The notes beneath the pieces were generated by a model that was given only the letters and a program-made list of their open reading frames with translations, had not been told where the DNA came from and made no database searches. From positions 1-37,828 of IMG/VR virus record IMGVR_UViG_3300034102_000945: a stretch of 37,828 nucleotides of DNA; one strand, given 5' to 3'. The stretch comes from a virus. The translations under genes were made by a program, and so were the position numbers. This document shows, one piece after another, positions 1 through 37,828 of this stretch. How positions within the stretch are numbered: position 1 is the stretch's first letter; every line of letters begins with the position of its first letter.

Positions 1-127
1 CTGGGACGTTGCATTCAATGTTAAAAGAAAATGGAAATGCATCCATTGCGGTAAGCAGACGCTTTCAGCAAATCCAATTAGCTTCATCAATCAAAATAGA
101 AACAAAGCCAAGGAGGCCAAGCTGTGA
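1..127 (+). CDS. 3' part of a small zinc-ribbon-like array protein (continues from 37716)
   Basis: The frame is open from the left edge and stops at 125-127. The visible 41 residues include a CxxC pair (CIHC) in a basic stretch, which may be half of a zinc ribbon, and end in KAKEAKL. Base 1 completes the codon left open at 37827-37828, so joining the two window ends gives one 79-residue protein starting at 37716. The AAGGAGG inside its last codons is the ribosome binding site for the next gene, whose GTG overlaps this stop as GTGA. The function is unknown. The ending is the same as in the small-gene array at 34210-37828. Confidence 0.75.
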   Translation, partial: WDVAFNVKRKWKCIHCGKQTLSANPISFINQNRNKAKEAKL

Positions 128-3655: not shown

Positions 3656-4183
3656 ATGAGCCGACCGCATTACCTCTGCAAGAAGGTCCAGCCGGGCGAG
3701 ATCAAGCCCATGACTGCGGACACGATCCGCATGATGGCTCAGGCCGAGGACCTCGTCGCCTACGGCATCCGCCGCGGGCTGATGGCCTACCCACCCAACA
3801 CCCAGTTCGACAAGGATGGCCGACCCATCCCGAAGATCACGGTGCCAAGCGCCCAAGCCAAGCCCATCGAGGCTTACCCATGCCTCCGGGCCTACCTGAT
3901 GCATGACGCCGGATCCACCCATGTCGAGGTGGCCAAGGCAATCACCGCATCAACTGCGAAGATCGGCGCTATCATCGCCCACGGGCGCGAGATCTACCGC
4001 CGCCAAGCCGTCGAGATAGCCAAGGAGGGTGAACAGGCCGCCTCGGAATCAAAACGCGCCAGCGGGGCAGGAAACGCGCAGGGCGGGCCATCCAAGGCAA
4101 GCCACCTCCCCCCGGGTGGGAACCCTCCCGGACAAAACCTTCCACGCAGGGGCCAAAGCAGAGCCAAGAGCCCGCGAGCGTAA
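3656..4183 (+). CDS. conserved-type hypothetical protein with possible helix-turn-helix
   Basis: Product of 175 aa, ATG 3 bases after the previous stop. Residues about 75-115 (CLRAYLMHDAGSTHVEVAKA and following) resemble a helix-turn-helix. The last 45 residues are Gly/Ser/Pro/Lys-rich and look disordered. I do not recognise the family. It lies between the replication genes and the packaging genes. Confidence 0.65.
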   Translation: MSRPHYLCKKVQPGEIKPMTADTIRMMAQAEDLVAYGIRRGLMAYPPNTQFDKDGRPIPKITVPSAQAKPIEAYPCLRAYLMHDAGSTHVEVAKAITASTAKIGAIIAHGREIYRRQAVEIAKEGEQAASESKRASGAGNAQGGPSKASHLPPGGNPPGQNLPRRGQSRAKSPRA

Positions 4184-4211: not shown

Positions 4212-4436
4212 ATGCCCCTCAGCACCGCCGCCTATTACGTCTCCCTCAATTACGGCCACCACCTCATCAAGTGGGCCATTGGCCGGATCCGGGCCGGGAG
4301 CATGACCCCGGAACAGTTCGCCGAGAGCCAGACTGCAGACGCTCACCCGCGGGATCCGAAGCGGGCCACCATCGCCCGGGGACTCCGGGAAATCATGGGC
4401 GAGAAGCCCGAGAACCTTCCCGAAAGCCTCCGATGA
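4212..4436 (+). CDS. small protein of unknown function, 74 aa
   Basis: ATG at 4212 after a 28-base gap. Helical in character (LNYGHHLIKWAIGRIRAG) with an acidic-basic C-terminal half. Its stop overlaps the ATG of the small-terminase candidate as ATGA, so it probably belongs with the packaging genes. No family recognised. Confidence 0.6.
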   Translation: MPLSTAAYYVSLNYGHHLIKWAIGRIRAGSMTPEQFAESQTADAHPRDPKRATIARGLREIMGEKPENLPESLR

Positions 4437-5077
4437 CCCAAGCCGACTACGCCAGGGCCACCGGACTTACCAAGGGCCGGGTCTCCCAGCTTGTGAAGGC
4501 AGGAATGCCCCTAGCTTCCCGGGAGGCTGCCGACAAGTGGCGGGGCATGAGTACCCGCGCCCGCCAAACCGCGGGGGTCAAGGGCAAACCGTCCGCGCCG
4601 ATCATCCCGAAATCCGCTTCGGGATCATCCGGGGAGCCGGGACCGTATCGCCCGCCCGAGGCCCAGGCGCCCACCGACCCCGCGTTGATCTCGGCCGACA
4701 CTCCGGAGGGTTCCTACGAACGGCAAAAGGGCATCGAGAAAGCCGCTTACGCATTGTCCGTCCGGGCGCTGAAGGCTGGGCAACCCGACGCCGGCCGCCT
4801 TGTTCAGATCCACAACCTCGCCGCCCGAAACCTGACCGCAGCCCGGGAGGAAGTTCTCGCGCTGGCCGAACGGGAGCGGCACCTTGTTTCCGGTGACTGG
4901 GTCCGCAAAGCCATGACCGAACACGACGGAGCGGTCGCCACTTTGCTCCGAGCAATGCCCAAGCAACTCGCCGGCCGCATCGCCCCTCACGACCCCGAAC
5001 ACGCAGAAAAGGAACTGGACCGCTGGGTCCAAGAAGTCGCCCTTGCCACTCTCCAACAAACCGATCCCTGGAAATGA
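4433..5077 (+). CDS. terminase small subunit, Nu1-like
   Basis: Product of 214 aa. The first 37 residues form a helix-turn-helix of the Nu1 type: QADYARATGLTKGRVSQLVK, then AGMPL, then a second helix EAADKWR. Lambda Nu1 and related packaging proteins recognise the packaging site with such a domain. A disordered Pro/Ser-rich linker (about 45-85) leads to a helical C-terminal part (about 90-214) that could bind the large subunit. The start at 4433 overlaps the upstream stop. The large subunit lies 1.4 kb downstream; two genes separate them. Confidence 0.7.
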   Translation: MTQADYARATGLTKGRVSQLVKAGMPLASREAADKWRGMSTRARQTAGVKGKPSAPIIPKSASGSSGEPGPYRPPEAQAPTDPALISADTPEGSYERQKGIEKAAYALSVRALKAGQPDAGRLVQIHNLAARNLTAAREEVLALAERERHLVSGDWVRKAMTEHDGAVATLLRAMPKQLAGRIAPHDPEHAEKELDRWVQEVALATLQQTDPWK

Positions 5078-5703
5078 AGAAATCCCAACCAACGATTGAG
5101 CAAATCAAGGTCGATGACCTGATACCTTACGCCACCAACAGCCGGACGCATTCAGCCGAGCAAGTCGCCCAGATTGCCGCCTCAATGGTCGAGTTCGGCT
5201 GGACGAATCCAGTGCTGATCGACACCCGCGGAACCATTGTTGCCGGGCACGGCCGGGTCATGGCCGCCCGCAAGCTCGGCATGGAGACGATCCCGTGCAT
5301 CCGCCTCGGGCATCTGACACCCGCCCAAGTTCGCGCCTACGTCATTGCCGACAACAAGCTCGCCCTAAATGCGGGTTGGGACGATGCAATGCTCAAGGCC
5401 GAGTTGGACATTCTCAAGGAGGAAGGTTTCAACATGGATTTGACCGGATTTACCGATGCCGAGGTCGAGAAAATCCTCGGGCAATTCGAGGTTGGGGACG
5501 GATCTATGCCAGACCTTAATTCCGGTGACCGCCAACCGATCCAACAAAAAACTTTCACCCTTCACGACGAACAAGCCGAGGAGGTAGACCGAGCCATCTC
5601 AAAGGCAAAGGAACTCGGATTGGACAACCACCCAATCAATGAAAACGGGAACGGCAACGCCTTGGCAGCAATCTGCCAAGAGTACAACCGCACCAACCCA
5701 TGA
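5074..5703 (+). CDS. ParB-like domain protein
   Basis: Product of 209 aa, ATG overlapping the small-terminase stop. Residues about 8-80 are a ParB/sulfiredoxin-type domain: KVDDLIPYATNSRTHS, then IAASMVEFGWTNPVLID, then VAGHGRVMAARKLG. Phage proteins with this domain are often fused or adjacent to DNA-modification enzymes. Here no methylase is attached and the following gene is Mom-like. The C-terminal half (about 150-209) is helical and unassigned. The domain could bind DNA or a nucleotide; catalytic activity is not shown. Confidence 0.85.
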   Translation: MKKSQPTIEQIKVDDLIPYATNSRTHSAEQVAQIAASMVEFGWTNPVLIDTRGTIVAGHGRVMAARKLGMETIPCIRLGHLTPAQVRAYVIADNKLALNAGWDDAMLKAELDILKEEGFNMDLTGFTDAEVEKILGQFEVGDGSMPDLNSGDRQPIQQKTFTLHDEQAEEVDRAISKAKELGLDNHPINENGNGNALAAICQEYNRTNP

Positions 5704-6464
5704 GCGCCAAGGACATCATCGTTAAGCCAATCAGCAGGGCCGACGCCGACAAGGTCGTTACCTCCTGTCATTACTCTGGGAAAGTGGTTCCAAACTCACA
5801 GTTGCACTTCGGTGTTTTCCTAAACGGAAAATGCGGAGGGGCAATGCAGTTTGGCCCATCAATGGACAAAAGGAAGACCATGACCATCGTCCAAGACACC
5901 CATTGGAATGGGTTTCTTGAACTCAATCGGATGGCTTTTTCGGAATGGTTGCCAAGGAATAGCGAGAGCCGGGCAATCTCAGTCGCTATGCGATTGATCC
6001 GAAAACACTATCCTCACATTGACTGGGTTATCTCATTTGCCGACGCGACTCAGTGCGGTGATGGAACAATTTACAGGGCCAGCGGTTTTGTTTTAACCGG
6101 GATCAAGGAAAACAAAACAATCCTCAAGATGCCTGACGGTTCTGTTGTGGCGGACAAAACCCTGAACAATTCAAACTACATCATCAAAGGCGAAAGCGCT
6201 GGTTATTGGAAGAAAAACGGGGCTGTCCCACTTTTAGGTTTCCAACTGCGTTACATGTACTTTCTCAACCCAGAAGCCCGCAAAAGGTTGACCGTCCCAA
6301 TTATTCCGTTTACAGAAATCGAACGTCGAGGTGCTTCCATGTACCTCGGAAAGCCAAAATGCGCCGGAAGTGACACTAAGGACACGGCGGACTCCCAGTC
6401 CGCAAAGGACGGCTCGAAACCGATCCCGGCGCTCCACTCTCAACGGTCAGGACTCGAATGTTGA
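5700..6464 (+). CDS. mom-like: Mom-like DNA-modification protein (GNAT-fold family)
   Basis: Product of 254 aa. The core (residues about 8-200) has the pattern of the Mu Mom family: HYSGKVVPNSQLHFGVF at 24-40, FLELNRMAF at 72-80, NSESRAISVAMRLI at 87-100, and WVISFADATQCGDGTIYRASGF at 109-130, split here only for naming. Mu Mom converts adenines in phage DNA to N6-carbamoylmethyl-adenine, which blocks host restriction. The ATG overlaps the ParB-like stop. The gene body is visibly poorer in GC than its neighbours, which suggests separate acquisition. The last 34 residues are low-complexity, and residues about 221-246 are encoded by a tRNA-like element (6361-6436), so the tail may exist for the RNA and not for the protein. 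The stop lies inside the start region of the large terminase. I recognise the family by pattern; the chemistry here is inferred. Confidence 0.75.
   Translation: MSAKDIIVKPISRADADKVVTSCHYSGKVVPNSQLHFGVFLNGKCGGAMQFGPSMDKRKTMTIVQDTHWNGFLELNRMAFSEWLPRNSESRAISVAMRLIRKHYPHIDWVISFADATQCGDGTIYRASGFVLTGIKENKTILKMPDGSVVADKTLNNSNYIIKGESAGYWKKNGAVPLLGFQLRYMYFLNPEARKRLTVPIIPFTEIERRGASMYLGKPKCAGSDTKDTADSQSAKDGSKPIPALHSQRSGLEC
6361..6436 (+). ncRNA. tRNA-like element, glycine type (CCC), embedded in the mom-like gene
   Basis: The 76 bases fold as a cloverleaf. Acceptor: GCGCCGG (6361-6367) pairs perfectly with CCGGCGC (6426-6432), followed by T (6433, position 73) and an encoded CCA (6434-6436). D-arm: GTG (6370-6372) with CAC (6383-6385), loop containing GG. 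Anticodon arm: GCGGA (6387-6391) with TCCGC (6399-6403), loop CTCCCAG with U33, anticodon CCC and A37. T-arm: GACGG (6408-6412) with CCG-TC (6420-6425, A6423 bulged), loop CTCGAAA. G1:C72, C2:G71, U73, C35 and C36 match the main glycine identity elements of bacterial tRNA-Gly. Departures from a normal tRNA: A at position 8, C at 54, a 3-bp D-stem and the bulge. Whether it is processed or charged is unknown. Confidence 0.7.
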
Positions 6465-8278
6465 CCGACCTCCAGCGGGATCTTCTGGAGTTCCGCCGCG
6501 GCCTGTACCGGCCAACCCCGCGGCAAACGGTTGTTGATTGGGCCGAGGCAAATCTCAAACTGACCGCCCGGCAGACCGAAAACCCGGGGCCGTTCTCGAC
6601 CAGCGTCCGCCCCTACACAAGAGAGCCGTTGGAATGCTGGAAGGACTCCGGGGTCGTCGAGATGACTTTGTGCTGGGGATCCCAGACCAGCAAAACGACC
6701 ACGCTGATGGCTGGCCTTGCGTGGCTCATCGACAACGAGCCGAGCCCGGCGCTTTGGCTGATGCCCACCGAAAACCTTGCCCGGTCGTTCTCGAAATCCC
6801 GGTGGCTGCCGATGCTTGAGGATTGCCCGGCAATCGTGGCGCACTTCCCGCAGGATCGGGACAAACTCACAAACCTCGAACAGCACTTTGACCGTTCCAC
6901 GCTAACGTTTGTGGGATCCAACAGCCCGGCAAACCTCGCTTCTCGTCCCGTCCGGGTGTTGGTCGCCGACGAGGTGGACAAGTTCGCCCAGGCTACCGAG
7001 CGAGAGGCCGACGCCCTTGACTTGGCCGAGCAGCGCCTCAAGGCGTTCAGTTCGTCCAAACTGTTTCTGACATCGACACCCACCACCACCGACGGGCGCA
7101 TCTGGCAACGGTTCCTCCGCGGGGACCAGCGCCGGTTCTATCTACCCTGCCCCCATTGCAAGGCACCGATCCGATTGGAATGGAGACAGGTCAAATGGGA
7201 CGAGACCGCCAAACTTGAGGACGGCAAGTGGGACTTTGGTCGGGTCCGCGCTTCCGCCCGCTACGAATGCCAGCTTTGCAAGGGCAACATGACCGACGCG
7301 CAGAAGGTCGCCGGACTTCGCCATGGGCAATGGATCCCGGAGAACAAGGGAGCGCTACCCGGGGTGCGTTCCTACCATCTTTCGAGCCTCTACAGTCCGG
7401 ATCGGAAATGCACTTGGGGCCACCTTGCCGTGCAGTTCCTCGAAGCCAAGGAATCGCTGTTGGGCCTCCAGTCGTTCGTGAACGGTAACTTAGCCGAACC
7501 GTGGGAGAACCAAGCCGCGCCCCGGCAACGGGACGAACTCATCGTGTCGGGCACCGAGGGACTGACGGACAAGTGCGTGAAGTTCTTGACCGTTGATTGC
7601 CAAGCCTCCAGCCCTCACTTCTGGTTTGTGGTTCGAGCATGGAACGAAGACGGATCCTCCCGGGCGGTTGACGCCGGACCCCTCGACACTTGGCACGACG
7701 TGCGCGAGAAACAACGGGAACACGGGGTCGGGGACGTCCACGTCGTCATCGACTCAGGCTATGATGCCCCGACAGTTTACGCCGAATGCCTCCGGTGGGG
7801 GCGGTTCGTGGCTCGCACCGGGCGGGTGCCGCTTTGGGTCGGGTGGATGCCATCGAAAGGAATGCCCCGGAAGGGATGGCGCAACCCGAAGACCGGGGTG
7901 GACGAGCCTTTATTCCTACGAGGAATCGACCCGCGAGTGGGCGACAACGCCGGCAACCAAGGCCGTCTCGAACTCAAGCTTTTGGAGTTCGGCACCGACG
8001 TGACCAAGGACATTCTCGAACGCCTCCGCAAGGGCAAGGTCAGCACCCGGTGGGAGGTCGCCGAAAAGGTCGCCACCCCGGATTATTGGAGGCACCTCGA
8101 CTGCGAGCAAAAGGTCGCCCGCTTGTCGAGCGCCACCGGCCGAACGACGTGGACGTGGCTGCCGAGGTCATCAAAATGGCCGAATCACCTCGCCGACTGT
8201 GAAGTCATGCAGGTGGCCGCCGCGGTTTTCTTCAACCGACTCCGCATGACCGCCGCCTCATCAAACGATGCAAACTGA
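6458..8278 (+). CDS. terminase large subunit, GpA family
   Basis: Product of 606 aa, the usual length for lambda GpA-type large terminases. ATPase: variant Walker A WGSQTSKTT at 73-81, Walker B VRVLVADEVD at 166-175, and a SSSKLFLTSTPTTTDG motif III region near 200. Two CxxC pairs (C231/C234 and C271/C274) form the zinc-knuckle-like insert typical of the family. The nuclease half contains VDCQASS (D380), VIDSGYDAPTVY (D432) and a late ADCE (about 583), consistent with an RNase H-like metal site. It cuts and pumps DNA into the prohead. The ATG lies inside the end of the mom-like gene, 22 bases after the CCA of the tRNA-like element. Confidence 0.95.
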   Translation: MLTDLQRDLLEFRRGLYRPTPRQTVVDWAEANLKLTARQTENPGPFSTSVRPYTREPLECWKDSGVVEMTLCWGSQTSKTTTLMAGLAWLIDNEPSPALWLMPTENLARSFSKSRWLPMLEDCPAIVAHFPQDRDKLTNLEQHFDRSTLTFVGSNSPANLASRPVRVLVADEVDKFAQATEREADALDLAEQRLKAFSSSKLFLTSTPTTTDGRIWQRFLRGDQRRFYLPCPHCKAPIRLEWRQVKWDETAKLEDGKWDFGRVRASARYECQLCKGNMTDAQKVAGLRHGQWIPENKGALPGVRSYHLSSLYSPDRKCTWGHLAVQFLEAKESLLGLQSFVNGNLAEPWENQAAPRQRDELIVSGTEGLTDKCVKFLTVDCQASSPHFWFVVRAWNEDGSSRAVDAGPLDTWHDVREKQREHGVGDVHVVIDSGYDAPTVYAECLRWGRFVARTGRVPLWVGWMPSKGMPRKGWRNPKTGVDEPLFLRGIDPRVGDNAGNQGRLELKLLEFGTDVTKDILERLRKGKVSTRWEVAEKVATPDYWRHLDCEQKVARLSSATGRTTWTWLPRSSKWPNHLADCEVMQVAAAVFFNRLRMTAASSNDAN

Positions 8279-34019: not shown

Positions 34020-34213
34020 AACTTCACGAACTCCCACCGGATCACCGGCTCCGAAACATCGCGATTCAGTCCATCGAAGGGCTTCGCATTCACTGCCGAA
34101 AAACGACCTACAAGGCCAAGCCAGCGACGTGGAAGATCGGCCGCGAGACTTACAACCGCCTCGGGGAGACTTGGCGCACCAACTTTGACTTCATCGTGGA
34201 GGCCACTAAGTGA
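34016..34213 (+). CDS. small basic protein, 65 aa
   Basis: GTG start with GGAGG upstream, overlap GTGA. Basic (RIHCRKTTYKAKPATWK) with possible strand structure. No coiled coil. The function is unknown. The final codons carry GGAGG for the next gene. Confidence 0.6.
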   Translation: MKLHELPPDHRLRNIAIQSIEGLRIHCRKTTYKAKPATWKIGRETYNRLGETWRTNFDFIVEATK

Positions 34214-34689
34214 AAGCCACCACCGAGCAAATCGTCTCCGCGCTCCGGGTGTTGTCCGTCGAGATGCACTCCGAGGACGGGGTTGCCAACGCCGTGGTTG
34301 CCGAAGCCGCCGACCGCCTGACGCTGATGGCCAACCTTGTCGCCCGGCACGTCGAGGAAACCAAGGACGACATTCAGCAAATGGCCGGCGCTTCCGACAC
34401 GCTGATCAAGGCTACGGCAAAGATTCAGAACCTCCGCGACCGGATTAAGCGGTTGGAGGACTGGAAGGACTCCGCGATGGCCGTGGAGCGCGAGTGGGAT
34501 GCGAACGCTATTTCAACGATGCTTGGTGGACAGCTTGGCGAGTCTCAACGTGTCGTCATCATGCGCGAGGTGCCGAGGCTTCTGGAACGCATCAAGCGGC
34601 TGGAGGAGGGTGGGGATGAAGCAATCTACCCCTTTGAATATGCGGCCCGAGTGAGAATTTGGACAGAAGCCAAGGAGGCCAAGCTGTGA
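34210..34689 (+). CDS. array protein 1: two coiled-coil motifs, 159 aa
   Basis: The largest array member. It holds the shared motif twice: DRIKRLEDWKDSA and ERIKRLEEGGDEA. N-terminal helical part (QIVSALRVLSVEMHSEDG). Ends TEAKEAKL, where AAGGAGG in the last codons serves the next GTG. An internal duplication of the motif region is possible. Confidence 0.65.
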   Translation: MKATTEQIVSALRVLSVEMHSEDGVANAVVAEAADRLTLMANLVARHVEETKDDIQQMAGASDTLIKATAKIQNLRDRIKRLEDWKDSAMAVEREWDANAISTMLGGQLGESQRVVIMREVPRLLERIKRLEEGGDEAIYPFEYAARVRIWTEAKEAKL

Positions 34690-34691
34690 GC
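34669..34691 (+). repeat. 23-bp direct repeat, copy B (gene-junction element)
   Basis: Identical over 23 bases to 107-129, spanning the end of one array gene, the AAGGAGG and the GTGA overlap. Confidence 0.85.
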
Positions 34692-34976
34692 GACACAAAC
34701 AACATGAGCAACGCAACACTTATCAAATGGAACGACGCAAAACCAAACGCTGAGCTTCTGAGGATCCGCTCAGACGGATCGTTTGAAATCCAGGGAGGCG
34801 CACCAACTCTGTTTGTGCTGGGTGAATTGGTTCACGCATTCCTGAAGCAGCAGGACCGCATCCGTCGGCTGGAGGAGGCGGGAGATAAGATGGAGGCATG
34901 GCTGCGCGATGAGCGGTTGGATGCAGTGCAGCACACTGTTTCAAAATGGAACAAAGCCAAGGAGGACAAACCGTGA
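34686..34976 (+). CDS. array protein 2, coiled-coil motif, 96 aa
   Basis: GTG overlap start. A unique N-terminal half (LIKWNDAKPNAELLRIRSDG) is followed by DRIRRLEEAGDKMEAWL and a C-terminal NKAKEDKP. The modular build (unique head, shared coil, shared end) recurs along the array. Confidence 0.65.
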   Translation: MSDTNNMSNATLIKWNDAKPNAELLRIRSDGSFEIQGGAPTLFVLGELVHAFLKQQDRIRRLEEAGDKMEAWLRDERLDAVQHTVSKWNKAKEDKP

Positions 34977-35170
34977 GCATCACAATCAAATCGTGGATCG
35001 TGCCAGCACTCATCACCGTAATCCTGCTGTGCATCATGTTCAGGCCATACCGTTCCAGCGGGCAGTATGACTTTGGAATGGTCTTTCGGCTGTTTTGGCT
35101 GATACCTATTGGAGCCGTTTGGATAATTTATATGGGAATTCTTTTAATTATTAAGGAGGCAAAGCCGTGA
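34973..35170 (+). CDS. small two-helix membrane protein in the array, 65 aa
   Basis: GTG overlap start. Two hydrophobic helices: IVPALITVILLCIMF (about 9-23) and LFWLIPIGAVWIIYMGILLI (about 40-60). No coil motif, but the same end (IKEAKP) and junction. Its DNA is A/T-richer than the neighbours. Membrane role unknown; a holin function is possible but unsupported. Confidence 0.6.
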   Translation: MSITIKSWIVPALITVILLCIMFRPYRSSGQYDFGMVFRLFWLIPIGAVWIIYMGILLIIKEAKP

Positions 35171-35433
35171 CTGATATTGAACATGAACTGATCGCCACTC
35201 AATGGGATCTGAAAGCAGCCAAAGATCGCATCAAGCTTTTGGAAAAAGATTCGCAGCGATTGAACTGGCTATTGAATATTTTGGAAAAAGATTCGCAGCG
35301 ATTGAACTGGCTATTGAGTAGGGGTCTTGCTTGGCGTGACTGCTACAACGACTGGTGGAAAGAAGGTGAGTGGCTGTACGCATCGCAAAGTGCGCGCGAA
35401 ACAATCGACAAAGCCAAGGAGGCCATGCCGTGA
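35167..35433 (+). CDS. array protein 3 with 14-aa tandem duplication, 88 aa
   Basis: GTG overlap start. Contains DRIKLLEKDSQRLNWLL followed by a second copy ILEKDSQRLNWLL, from a 42-bp tandem duplication at 35237-35320. The copies are in frame and lengthen the coil by 14 residues (two heptads). Ends KAKEAMP. Confidence 0.65.
   Translation: MTDIEHELIATQWDLKAAKDRIKLLEKDSQRLNWLLNILEKDSQRLNWLLSRGLAWRDCYNDWWKEGEWLYASQSARETIDKAKEAMP
35237..35320 (+). repeat. 42-bp tandem duplication
   Basis: Copy 1 is 35237-35278 and copy 2 is 35279-35320, differing at about one base near the end. The unit is exactly 14 codons, so the frame is kept. Near-identity points to a recent event. Confidence 0.9.
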
Positions 35434-35744
35434 ACCATATTGGCGACACCAACAAAATGGTCAGCGATACACCAAGAACGGATGCGGCCATTGGGAACAG
35501 CCAAGACCGCTCATGGATGGATGGCACTCTGTGCCGCCAACTTGAACGCGAACTGAACGCGGCCAATGAGCGCACCAAGCGGCTGGAGGAGGCGGGGGAT
35601 GCGCTGATGGAAATCGTCGAAGGCGCTCGCAGCGAGCGATGGAACGTGAATGGATTCAGGCTGAAAGATACGCCTGAATGGGTTCAGTTCTACGTTTCTT
35701 TTCGCAAAGCCAAAAGGTCCAAATGGAAGGAGGCCAAGCCGTGA
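35430..35744 (+). CDS. array protein 4, coiled-coil motif, 104 aa
   Basis: GTG overlap start. SDTPRTDAAIGNS head, then CRQLERELNAANERTKRLEE and AGDALMEIVEGARS, a form of the motif I recall from other phages. Ends KWKEAKP with AAGGAGG for the next gene. Confidence 0.65.
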   Translation: MNHIGDTNKMVSDTPRTDAAIGNSQDRSWMDGTLCRQLERELNAANERTKRLEEAGDALMEIVEGARSERWNVNGFRLKDTPEWVQFYVSFRKAKRSKWKEAKP

Positions 35745-35923
35745 GTGTTGAGGAACGAATCCTTTTCCTAGCGGAGTCTCCCGATTGCAACCATCCACGC
35801 GAACTCCGCGCAATCGCCTTTCAGGTGCGAAAACTGGAGGATCGGATCAAGCAACTCGAATCCGAGAACGACGCTCTCCGCGCCGATCTGCTGCTGTGGG
35901 AAGAGAAGGAGGCCAAGCCGTGA
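35741..35923 (+). CDS. array protein 5, coiled-coil motif, 60 aa
   Basis: GTG overlap start. Short head (EERILFLAESPDCNHPREL), then a continuous coil RKLEDRIKQLESENDALRAD and the end EEKEAKP. This is close to the minimal unit of the array: head, coil, junction tail. Confidence 0.65.
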   Translation: MSVEERILFLAESPDCNHPRELRAIAFQVRKLEDRIKQLESENDALRADLLLWEEKEAKP

Positions 35924-36117
35924 ACGACAAACACTGGCAATACTCGCTAGTAATTCCATGCACGCTGTTGTTCGTGGTTTTGGTTACGATGTGTTTGATT
36001 AAAGGGTTCGATAACGGGACTGATCAAATGCAGCAACAGGCAGTTCTAGCAGGTCATGCCGAATGGGTGGCCGACAAGAACGGGAAACCTCAATTCAAAT
36101 GGAAGGAGTGCAAATGA
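35920..36117 (+). CDS. small one-TM membrane protein in the array, 65 aa
   Basis: GTG overlap start. One membrane helix (SLVIPCTLLFVVLVTMCLI, about 9-27), then a polar tail ending KWKECK. AAGGAG in the last codons precedes an ATGA junction. Function unknown. Confidence 0.6.
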   Translation: MNDKHWQYSLVIPCTLLFVVLVTMCLIKGFDNGTDQMQQQAVLAGHAEWVADKNGKPQFKWKECK

Positions 36118-36482
36118 GCGAACCAATCTACTTTTCAACCAACAGCCACCCGATATCCAACCCAACGACGCAGATCATGCGGGTCGATCTGGATGGTGGG
36201 TTCACGGTCAATGAATCCATACCCGCTACTGATGCAGCCAAAGAAGTGCTTCGGATTATGAAGGAGCAATGGTTTGCCGACGCACAGGCCACAAAGATCC
36301 GCGAGCTTCAATCCGATGTGAACGAGCTGAAGGAGCTGGTCGAGTACCTGCAAGATCGGATCAAGCTGATGAAGAGTACTGGTGACGAACTGCTTGAGTG
36401 GCTGAAGGACGGTGCTATTTCCGACTCAAACTATCGGTTGCTGGCCAACGCATGGCAGCGAGCAAAGGAGAACAAGAGATGA
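36114..36482 (+). CDS. array protein 6, coiled-coil motif, 122 aa
   Basis: ATG overlap start. Beta-like head (TTQIMRVDLDGGFTVNESI), then VNELKELVEYLQDRIKLMKS and TGDELLEWLKDG, end QRAKENKR. The head resembles that of array protein 2 (RxDxxGxF), so the two may share more than the coil. Confidence 0.65.
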   Translation: MSEPIYFSTNSHPISNPTTQIMRVDLDGGFTVNESIPATDAAKEVLRIMKEQWFADAQATKIRELQSDVNELKELVEYLQDRIKLMKSTGDELLEWLKDGAISDSNYRLLANAWQRAKENKR

Positions 36483-36775
36483 ACCCCGAATACGAAGCGC
36501 ACGAACGCTTGTGCAAATCCATCGGAGACATGGCGAAGGAGAACGAGGCTCTTAAGCAGCACGTCACCCAACTCGAAAACCGTCTCCGCGCTCTGTGGGA
36601 CAAGCTGGAGGGAGAACGGAAGTACTACAACGAACACATCCGCCAACTGGAACTAGCTGGCAACGCGATGTACGCATTCATCAACCCTCCATATCCGAGC
36701 ATGAGAACCACCCGAATGGACAACCTATTGCAGGGCTGGGACGACGCTAAGATTGGGAAGGAGGGGAAGCTGTGA
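36479..36775 (+). CDS. array protein 7, coiled coil, 98 aa
   Basis: ATG overlap start. A long coil (ENEALKQHVTQLENRLRALW) leads to HIRQLELAGNAMYAF, a diverged form of the shared motif. Ends KIGKEGKL with AAGGAGG for the next GTG. Confidence 0.65.
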   Translation: MNPEYEAHERLCKSIGDMAKENEALKQHVTQLENRLRALWDKLEGERKYYNEHIRQLELAGNAMYAFINPPYPSMRTTRMDNLLQGWDDAKIGKEGKL

Positions 36776-36900
36776 GATTCAAGGAATGGTTGGGGTACAT
36801 GAAAGAAGAACTGGAGTTCCACAAGCGACATCCAGAACTGTGGCTTGCACTTGTGATTGCTGGTTCGGCTTACTTCATACTGAAGGAGGTAAATCGGTGA
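36772..36900 (+). CDS. very small one-TM membrane protein, 42 aa
   Basis: GTG overlap start. A charged N-terminal half (FKEWLGYMKEELEFHKRH) is followed by one short hydrophobic helix (LWLALVIAGSAYFIL). The stop overlaps the next GTG and AAGGAGG lies just upstream of it. The third membrane protein in the array. Confidence 0.6.
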   Translation: MRFKEWLGYMKEELEFHKRHPELWLALVIAGSAYFILKEVNR

Positions 36901-37100
36901 AACGCTACACCCACATCGTGTTGCGACGAATGCCTCCTTTGAACGGATTCAGCATCAAGACTCCAGAAGGTAAGTTCCTAAGCGACATGCGTCCACGGGG
37001 CATTGTGATGGAACTCAATCGTCTCAACGACCGCATCAAAGAACTAGAAGCCAAAGTGGACGAGTTGAACGACCTCGAAAAATGGTTGGAGGGAAGATGA
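36897..37100 (+). CDS. array protein 8, coiled-coil motif, 67 aa
   Basis: GTG overlap start. Basic head (RYTHIVLRRMPPLNGFSIK), then LNRLNDRIKELEAKVDELND. The end LEGR overlaps the next ATG; GGAGGG lies in the last codons. Confidence 0.65.
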   Translation: MKRYTHIVLRRMPPLNGFSIKTPEGKFLSDMRPRGIVMELNRLNDRIKELEAKVDELNDLEKWLEGR

Positions 37101-37315
37101 TTGTACCCATTGGCCCAGCCGCATTCGTGTTCCGCCACAATCGAACCGGCCAGATTGTCGTCGCACCCAGCGAGCGATGGCATGAGTACTACGACAACAA
37201 AGAGGACTGGGAACATACCGCGAGCGTGAATGCTTGCGGAGCTTTACAGTACATCATCGACGCCAAACCAGCTGAGAGGAACCGATACATCAAATCGCTT
37301 ACGGAGAAACCATGA
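37097..37315 (+). CDS. array-region protein without coil, 72 aa
   Basis: ATG overlap start. Strand-rich head (VPIGPAAFVFRHNRTGQIVV), an acidic/aromatic middle (ERWHEYYDNKEDWEH) and a basic end. No shared motif. Coupled on both sides. Confidence 0.6.
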   Translation: MIVPIGPAAFVFRHNRTGQIVVAPSERWHEYYDNKEDWEHTASVNACGALQYIIDAKPAERNRYIKSLTEKP

Positions 37316-37527
37316 AACGCTGGAACAAGAAAGCATGGCCTTTACTGGCAGGAACCAAGAATGGAAACACCATCAGAGTCTGGTGCCCATATTGTCGGAT
37401 TCACCATGTGCATGGATGGGACAAGGACTGTTCAGATTCCGATGCAACCCATCGAGTGGCACACTGCCTGCCTGGTGGACCATTCCGCGAGACAGGGTAC
37501 TACATCACTGTGGAGCCAATACTATGA
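37312..37527 (+). CDS. zinc-ribbon-like small protein, 71 aa
   Basis: ATG overlap start. CPYC with a following HHVHGW, and later HRVAHC, supplies Cys/His ligands for a small zinc ribbon. Such proteins are frequent among unassigned phage genes. It may bind nucleic acid. The pattern is a distant parallel to the CIHC protein that crosses the window edge. Confidence 0.65.
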   Translation: MKRWNKKAWPLLAGTKNGNTIRVWCPYCRIHHVHGWDKDCSDSDATHRVAHCLPGGPFRETGYYITVEPIL

Positions 37528-37703
37528 CCATCGAAGAAATGAGAACCATTGACGCCGTCAAGACTTGGAAGGAATTGGAGGAGGCCAAGGAACGGATCAA
37601 GCGGCTGGAGACAGCCATCCGATCCACACTCGAAGCCAATCGACACCTGGCCGACGGCGACAACTGCACCCTGATCGAACTCAAGAAAGCCCTAACAGAC
37701 TAA
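37524..37703 (+). CDS. array protein 9, coiled-coil motif, 59 aa
   Basis: ATG overlap start. Almost all coil: TWKELEEAKERIKRLETAIR and a polar end. Followed by a 12-base gap with AGAAGGGG before the last gene. Confidence 0.65.
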   Translation: MTIEEMRTIDAVKTWKELEEAKERIKRLETAIRSTLEANRHLADGDNCTLIELKKALTD

Positions 37704-37715
37704 TAGAAGGGGAAA

Positions 37716-37828
37716 ATGACGATACTTCAACAATTGGGGTTGACCAAGGAGTCCATGTCTCGCATGGTGGGCCACGTCACTCCGTTCAAGGATCCGAACC
37801 CTCGGATCAACCGGCGGTGGCCGGCTGT
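37716..37828 (+). CDS. 5' part of a small zinc-ribbon-like array protein (continues at 1)
   Basis: ATG at 37716 with GAAGGGG upstream. The 37 full codons seen (HTH-like LTKESMSRMVGH, then VTPFKDPNPRINRRWPA) end with two bases that base 1 completes. The joined product is 79 aa. The HTH-like head plus CIHC resembles small phage DNA-binding proteins. Function unknown. Confidence 0.65.
   Translation, partial: MTILQQLGLTKESMSRMVGHVTPFKDPNPRINRRWPA

Follow-up and report, generated by a model that had tools for sequence, protein, structure and literature searches.

In-frame ends of a tailed phage contig as probable assembly breaks in a small-gene array shared among phages

The viral contig analysed here, whose whole stretch of 37,828 nucleotides is called the window, raises the question of whether base 37828 is followed directly by base 1. 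The initial annotation proposed a complete circular assembly, on the ground that one reading frame stays open over the two ends and that both ends lie in the same kind of small-gene array. The arithmetic of the frame is exact: from the ATG at 37716 it runs for 37 full codons, bases 37827-37828 and base 1 form a GTC codon, and 41 codons follow at the window start until the TGA at 125-127. The product would be a protein of 79 amino acids, with the residues up to 38 coming from the window end and residues 39-79 from the window start. The array is also confirmed at both ends by its open reading frames and linkers. The supposed rarity of a 41-codon continuation with an array-type ending did not stand. 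Since each contig end falls within a genuine gene, the only free event is the match of frame, which is expected one time in three; the length of the continuation and the type of its ending are guaranteed because they are the true 3' end of an array gene. Besides, two of the three frames are open for at least 41 codons from the window start (41 and 51 codons). A circular contig assembled at k=127 is expected to show a 127-bp overlap of its ends unless this was trimmed. Between the window ends we found neither a terminal direct repeat nor any overlap that reaches 6 bp, the longest word common to the outer 1.5 kb being 11 bp in direct and 10 bp in inverted orientation.

Genes cut at the two ends

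When the 79-residue product was searched against viral contigs, the 80 loci retrieved matched residues 1-38 or residues 39-79, whole or in part, and not one of the 80 matched across residue 38. The two halves match different sets of contigs. Past the base equivalent to 37828 the printed relatives read TTCCAACCGAGATCC, with one reading TTCCAGCC, and upstream of base 1 the relatives read a sequence ending in CATTCTCA. The claimed join was absent from every relative checked that extends past either point, on both sides, and the exact 46-mer over the join occurs in none of the 2.9 million viral contigs of IMG/VR that were searched. In the relatives both genes are intact. The gene cut at 37828 encodes a protein of 81 amino acids that begins with MTILQQLG, reads RRWPAV up to the contig end and continues with PTEIRDAILKEDKSRTYPELSKKYNISLSCVWNI; we call it HTH-like on the basis of sub-threshold Pfam matches and inspection. 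The gene cut at base 1 encodes 77 amino acids from a GTG start, reading VSAMNCIGKILKRFLGIACSHYWQPLNDSFHGSHSH before base 1 and WDVAFNVKRKWKC from it onwards, with KEAKL at its end. The parts of both genes that the window retains are the following.

37716 onwards, inside 37702-37828, + strand: first 37 codons of the 81-aa HTH-like gene, from the ATG at 37716; the gene is intact in relatives
1-127, + strand: 3' part (41 codons and stop) of the 77-aa GTG-start array gene, with VSAMNCIGKILKRFLGIACSHYWQPLNDSFHGSHSH before base 1 and WDVAFN...KEAKL and the stop after it; the gene is intact in relatives

One relative (L038) carries both segments, and there the window-start gene lies about 0.5 kb before the window-end gene, the reverse of the claimed order. 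The in-frame join is a one-in-three coincidence, the beginning of one truncated array gene happening to be in frame with the end of another, and the reported circular junction, judged from the sequences compared here, is no real feature. In the true genome, 37828 would run on into TTCCAACCGAG and base 1 would be entered from CATTCTCA. Because 133 bp are needed to complete the HTH-like gene and 107 bp to supply the start of the GTG gene, we infer that at least about 240 bp are missing between 37828 and 1, possibly with several further cassettes. As a candidate protein family the 79-residue fusion was rejected, its Pfam matches being all sub-threshold and a match in cultured phages being absent.

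Contig breaks and the circular map

The positions at which the contig stops coincide with two runs of identity to contigs that are otherwise flanked differently, covering exactly 1-127 and exactly 37702-37828.

1-127, + strand: shared 127-mer at the window start, presumably a node of the assembly graph; base 1 is also the first base of contigs L015, L022 and L025, and base 127 the last of L020 and L027
37702-37828, + strand: shared 127-mer at the window end; identity with L031, L033, L037, L043, L049, L053, L055 and L064 begins exactly at 37702

From each end, identity holds for exactly 127 bp and is lost at 128 and at 37701; bases 1, 127 and, for L064, 37828 are also the first or last bases of other contigs. 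L015, L020 and L031 come from a single metagenome. According to the COBRA paper, metaSPAdes contigs break at repeats and at regions that genomes have in common, and in simulations their ends are left with sequence of the maxK length (PMC10914622). The window ends look to be of this type, carrying sequence common to other contigs at a shared region; we know of no difference, the region in this case being a cassette array of phages. Other phages have this array at 100% identity, so that the assembler would have halted at the outermost 127-mers held in common. Both window ends are very probably de Bruijn assembly breakpoints in an array common to many phages, a confidence that we hold for this reading jointly with the circular map and the linear virion DNA discussed below; the value of k=127 is taken from the 127-bp runs themselves.

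Part of the initial proposal was retained. Eight syntenic relatives (G013, G023, G025, G026, G027, G028, G029 and G032), about 70-90% identical to the window over the backbone, pass from the equivalent of window 34.2-34.5 kb through an array into the equivalent of window 0.1-0.28 kb. Because these relatives run from right arm through array to left arm, it holds that the window ends are neighbours on the circular map and that the backbone is complete; what fell away, with the intact genes and the absent 46-mer, is the direct join and the closed contig. The array between the arms of the eight relatives measures about 60-660 bp and consists of variable small genes, and that of the window, at more than 3.4 kb, is unusually long by comparison. 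The window is best explained as a metagenomic contig that covers almost the whole genome of a tailed phage with a circular genome map. This reading prevents an incomplete phage contig from being recorded as closed and keeps a 79-residue chimera out of the databases.

Two other accounts of the ends have to be weighed against assembly breaks. That 37828 joins base 1 directly (GGCCGGCTGT running into CTGGGACGTT), as a circular contig with its terminal overlap trimmed and a real 79-residue gene, would agree with the open frame, and gene order is shuffled within the array, so that new neighbours are possible. However, such a join would lie in the middle of two different genes that are intact elsewhere, although identity within the array otherwise breaks mostly at gene-boundary linkers; the divergence 127 bp inside each end already explains the end coordinates, and the exact junction was found in no searched viral contig. 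We regard a direct join as extremely unlikely. It could also be supposed that the window is a chimera, the array of another phage having been wrongly joined to the backbone at one or both ends, and indeed both terminal 127-mers also occur in contigs without this terminase. This is highly improbable, since an array with this linker also sits at that place in relatives that share the backbone, G013 has the head gene at the matching place and then window sequence from 279, and the linkers of L023 and L016 are spaced as in window 34670-35904.

A putative cos site beside the terminase genes

Linear ends elsewhere, which the initial annotation had set against its own reading, are seen in the relatives, at the position that corresponds to window 4149-4161.

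4149-4161, + strand: putative cos site GGGGCCAAAGCAG, with a 13-nt 5' cohesive end, placed from contig termini in relatives
4271-5077, + strand: terminase small subunit (TerS; PHROG 57, E 7.5e-07)
6458-8278, + strand: terminase large subunit (TerL) of the lambda gpA family (Pfam GpA_ATPase, 2e-62, and GpA_nuclease, 3.8e-19; phrog_15)

Among the 80 contigs with a related TerL, 25 begin, within a base, at the core GGGGCC[A/G]AA that corresponds to window 4149, and four (G023, G026, G032 and L251) stop at GGGGCCAAAGCAG, corresponding to window 4161. The 33,568-bp contig G026 does both, starting at 4149 and ending at 4161 with a 13-bp terminal overlap, and G032 has the same two termini plus one extra leading T. 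Fixed termini that share a sequence of less than 20 nt near TerS are as expected of a lambda-type cos, and the large terminase is of the gpA family, with Pfam PF05876 and PF20454 above cut-off, which fits a cos phage; the terminase is only about 30% identical to that of the best-covered cultured phages. In comparison with the lambda system (gpNu1/gpA), the large terminase family, the position of cos directly upstream of TerS and a short end common to both termini are the same, whereas the cohesive end is here 13 nt, GGGGCCAAAGCAG, putative from contig termini, and that of lambda is 12 nt. Between TerS and TerL, a ParB-like protein (5074-5700) adjoins a Mom-like DNA modification protein (5700-6461; phrog_1384, 7.8e-48).

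PhageTerm describes that 5' cos ends are filled in by the end repair of library preparation, so that both termini carry the cohesive sequence, and that assemblers tend to put such ends at contig limits, with reads that cross cos representing circular or prophage forms (PMC5557969). We infer from the contig termini that the virion DNA of the relatives is linear, with a lambda-type 5' cos at 4149-4161 beside TerS and TerL; the 13-bp overlap would be the filled-in 5' overhang, and the window phage would behave like its relatives. The genome ends are now placed where the relatives show them. It might be objected that 4149-4161 is an assembly breakpoint at a conserved sequence instead of a physical end, given that in 17 of the 80 relatives the core is internal and that the window likewise reads through 4149. 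Reading through would be explained by cos-crossing reads, which come from circular or prophage forms. Moreover, one and the same base is the start of 25 contigs of many metagenomes, whose DNA is widely different from that of the window, four contigs end 13 bp later where a k-mer breakpoint would give an overlap of k and not of 13, and the site adjoins TerS and a gpA-type TerL. For the cos site, a mere breakpoint is thus very unlikely. In the relatives that read through 4149-4161, the site has a conserved flank, GGGTGGGAACCCTCCC...CACGCA followed immediately by GGGGCCAAAGCAG.

The linker and exchange of small genes

The array in which the contig breaks is built around a short linker. When up to 4 mismatches are allowed, the window has eight copies of it, every one on the + strand.

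34210-37828, + strand: right-hand part of the cassette array, with open reading frames, repeats and linkers; it resumes at 1-127 beyond the gap
103-127, + strand: array linker AAAGCCAAGGAGGCCAAGCTGTGA, with a Shine-Dalgarno sequence and an overlapping GTGA start/stop
34670-34689, + strand: array linker copy; more copies start at 34957, 35151, 35414, 35725, 35904 and 36756

The consensus is aaagccAAGGAGGcCAAGC[C/T]GTGAgc, of about 24 bp, and holds the Shine-Dalgarno sequence, the last codons (KEAK[P/L]) of one gene and the overlapping stop and start codons. In the fetched loci the linker occurs 295 times, and 142 of its contexts are distinct. The start/stop overlap is present in 141, with 98 upstream and 108 downstream sequences, in a set that is biased by many loci having been retrieved through a linker-bearing gene and by some overlapping each other; base-shuffled sequences contain 2 instances. 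The exact 21-mer of the linker gave at least 120 match stretches in viral contigs and 5 in genome contigs. Many array products (34670-37828 and 103-127) have a coiled-coil motif like ERIKRLEEAGD and the C-terminus KEAK[P/L]. Array genes occur at near 100% identity in contigs without a similar terminase. The array DNA gave no match in cultured phages, a scan for promoters and terminators in the array found no excess over shuffles, and the window has no tRNA genes.

When contigs are compared in pairs over the window-start gene, the commonest point at which identity sets in is the upstream linker (-125 in 105 of 190 pairs), and the downstream linker (127-129) is a frequent point of its loss; this pattern fits recombination at boundary sequences. 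In the boundary-sequence model of mosaicism, homologous recombination at short conserved intergenic sequences leads to exchange at gene boundaries (described in PMC3233612). Exchange at gene boundaries through a short conserved sequence would be common to both cases; here, in contrast, a single linker connects about 100 different small genes in a range of phages, some of which have no similar terminase. By layout, the nearest described analogue is the SAS/ESAS of Cluster K mycobacteriophages, a short element that recurs in the same orientation at the starts of many genes of the non-structural region (PMC3203893). Its sequence is unrelated, and the linker here differs in overlapping the stop and start codons, encoding the KEAK[P/L] C-terminus and coinciding with the putative exchange breakpoints. 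We tentatively suggest, as a possibility somewhat short of even, that the array is a phage-borne cassette system in which the linker of about 24 bp couples translation and doubles as the homologous sequence at which exchange takes place. Small genes, many of them coiled-coil, would then pass by linker-to-linker swaps among aquatic phages that differ in other respects, and would accumulate in rows. A linker-joined array common to phages of different backbone explains assembly breaks in such genomes, and it constitutes a testable case of boundary-sequence recombination.

Regarding the host, a search with TerL found no relative among genome contigs, and our literature search on cassettes of freshwater or Verrucomicrobia phages found nothing directly relevant among the titles listed. 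Of the five linker matches in the genome collection, only one contig (L378, 4052 bp) carries linker and array genes, and its binning in a MAG of Verrucomicrobiota gives a faint hint of a host in that phylum. Within one array gene of the window, a tandem 42-bp duplication (35237-35320, 98% identical) produces a second LEKDSQRLNWLL unit.
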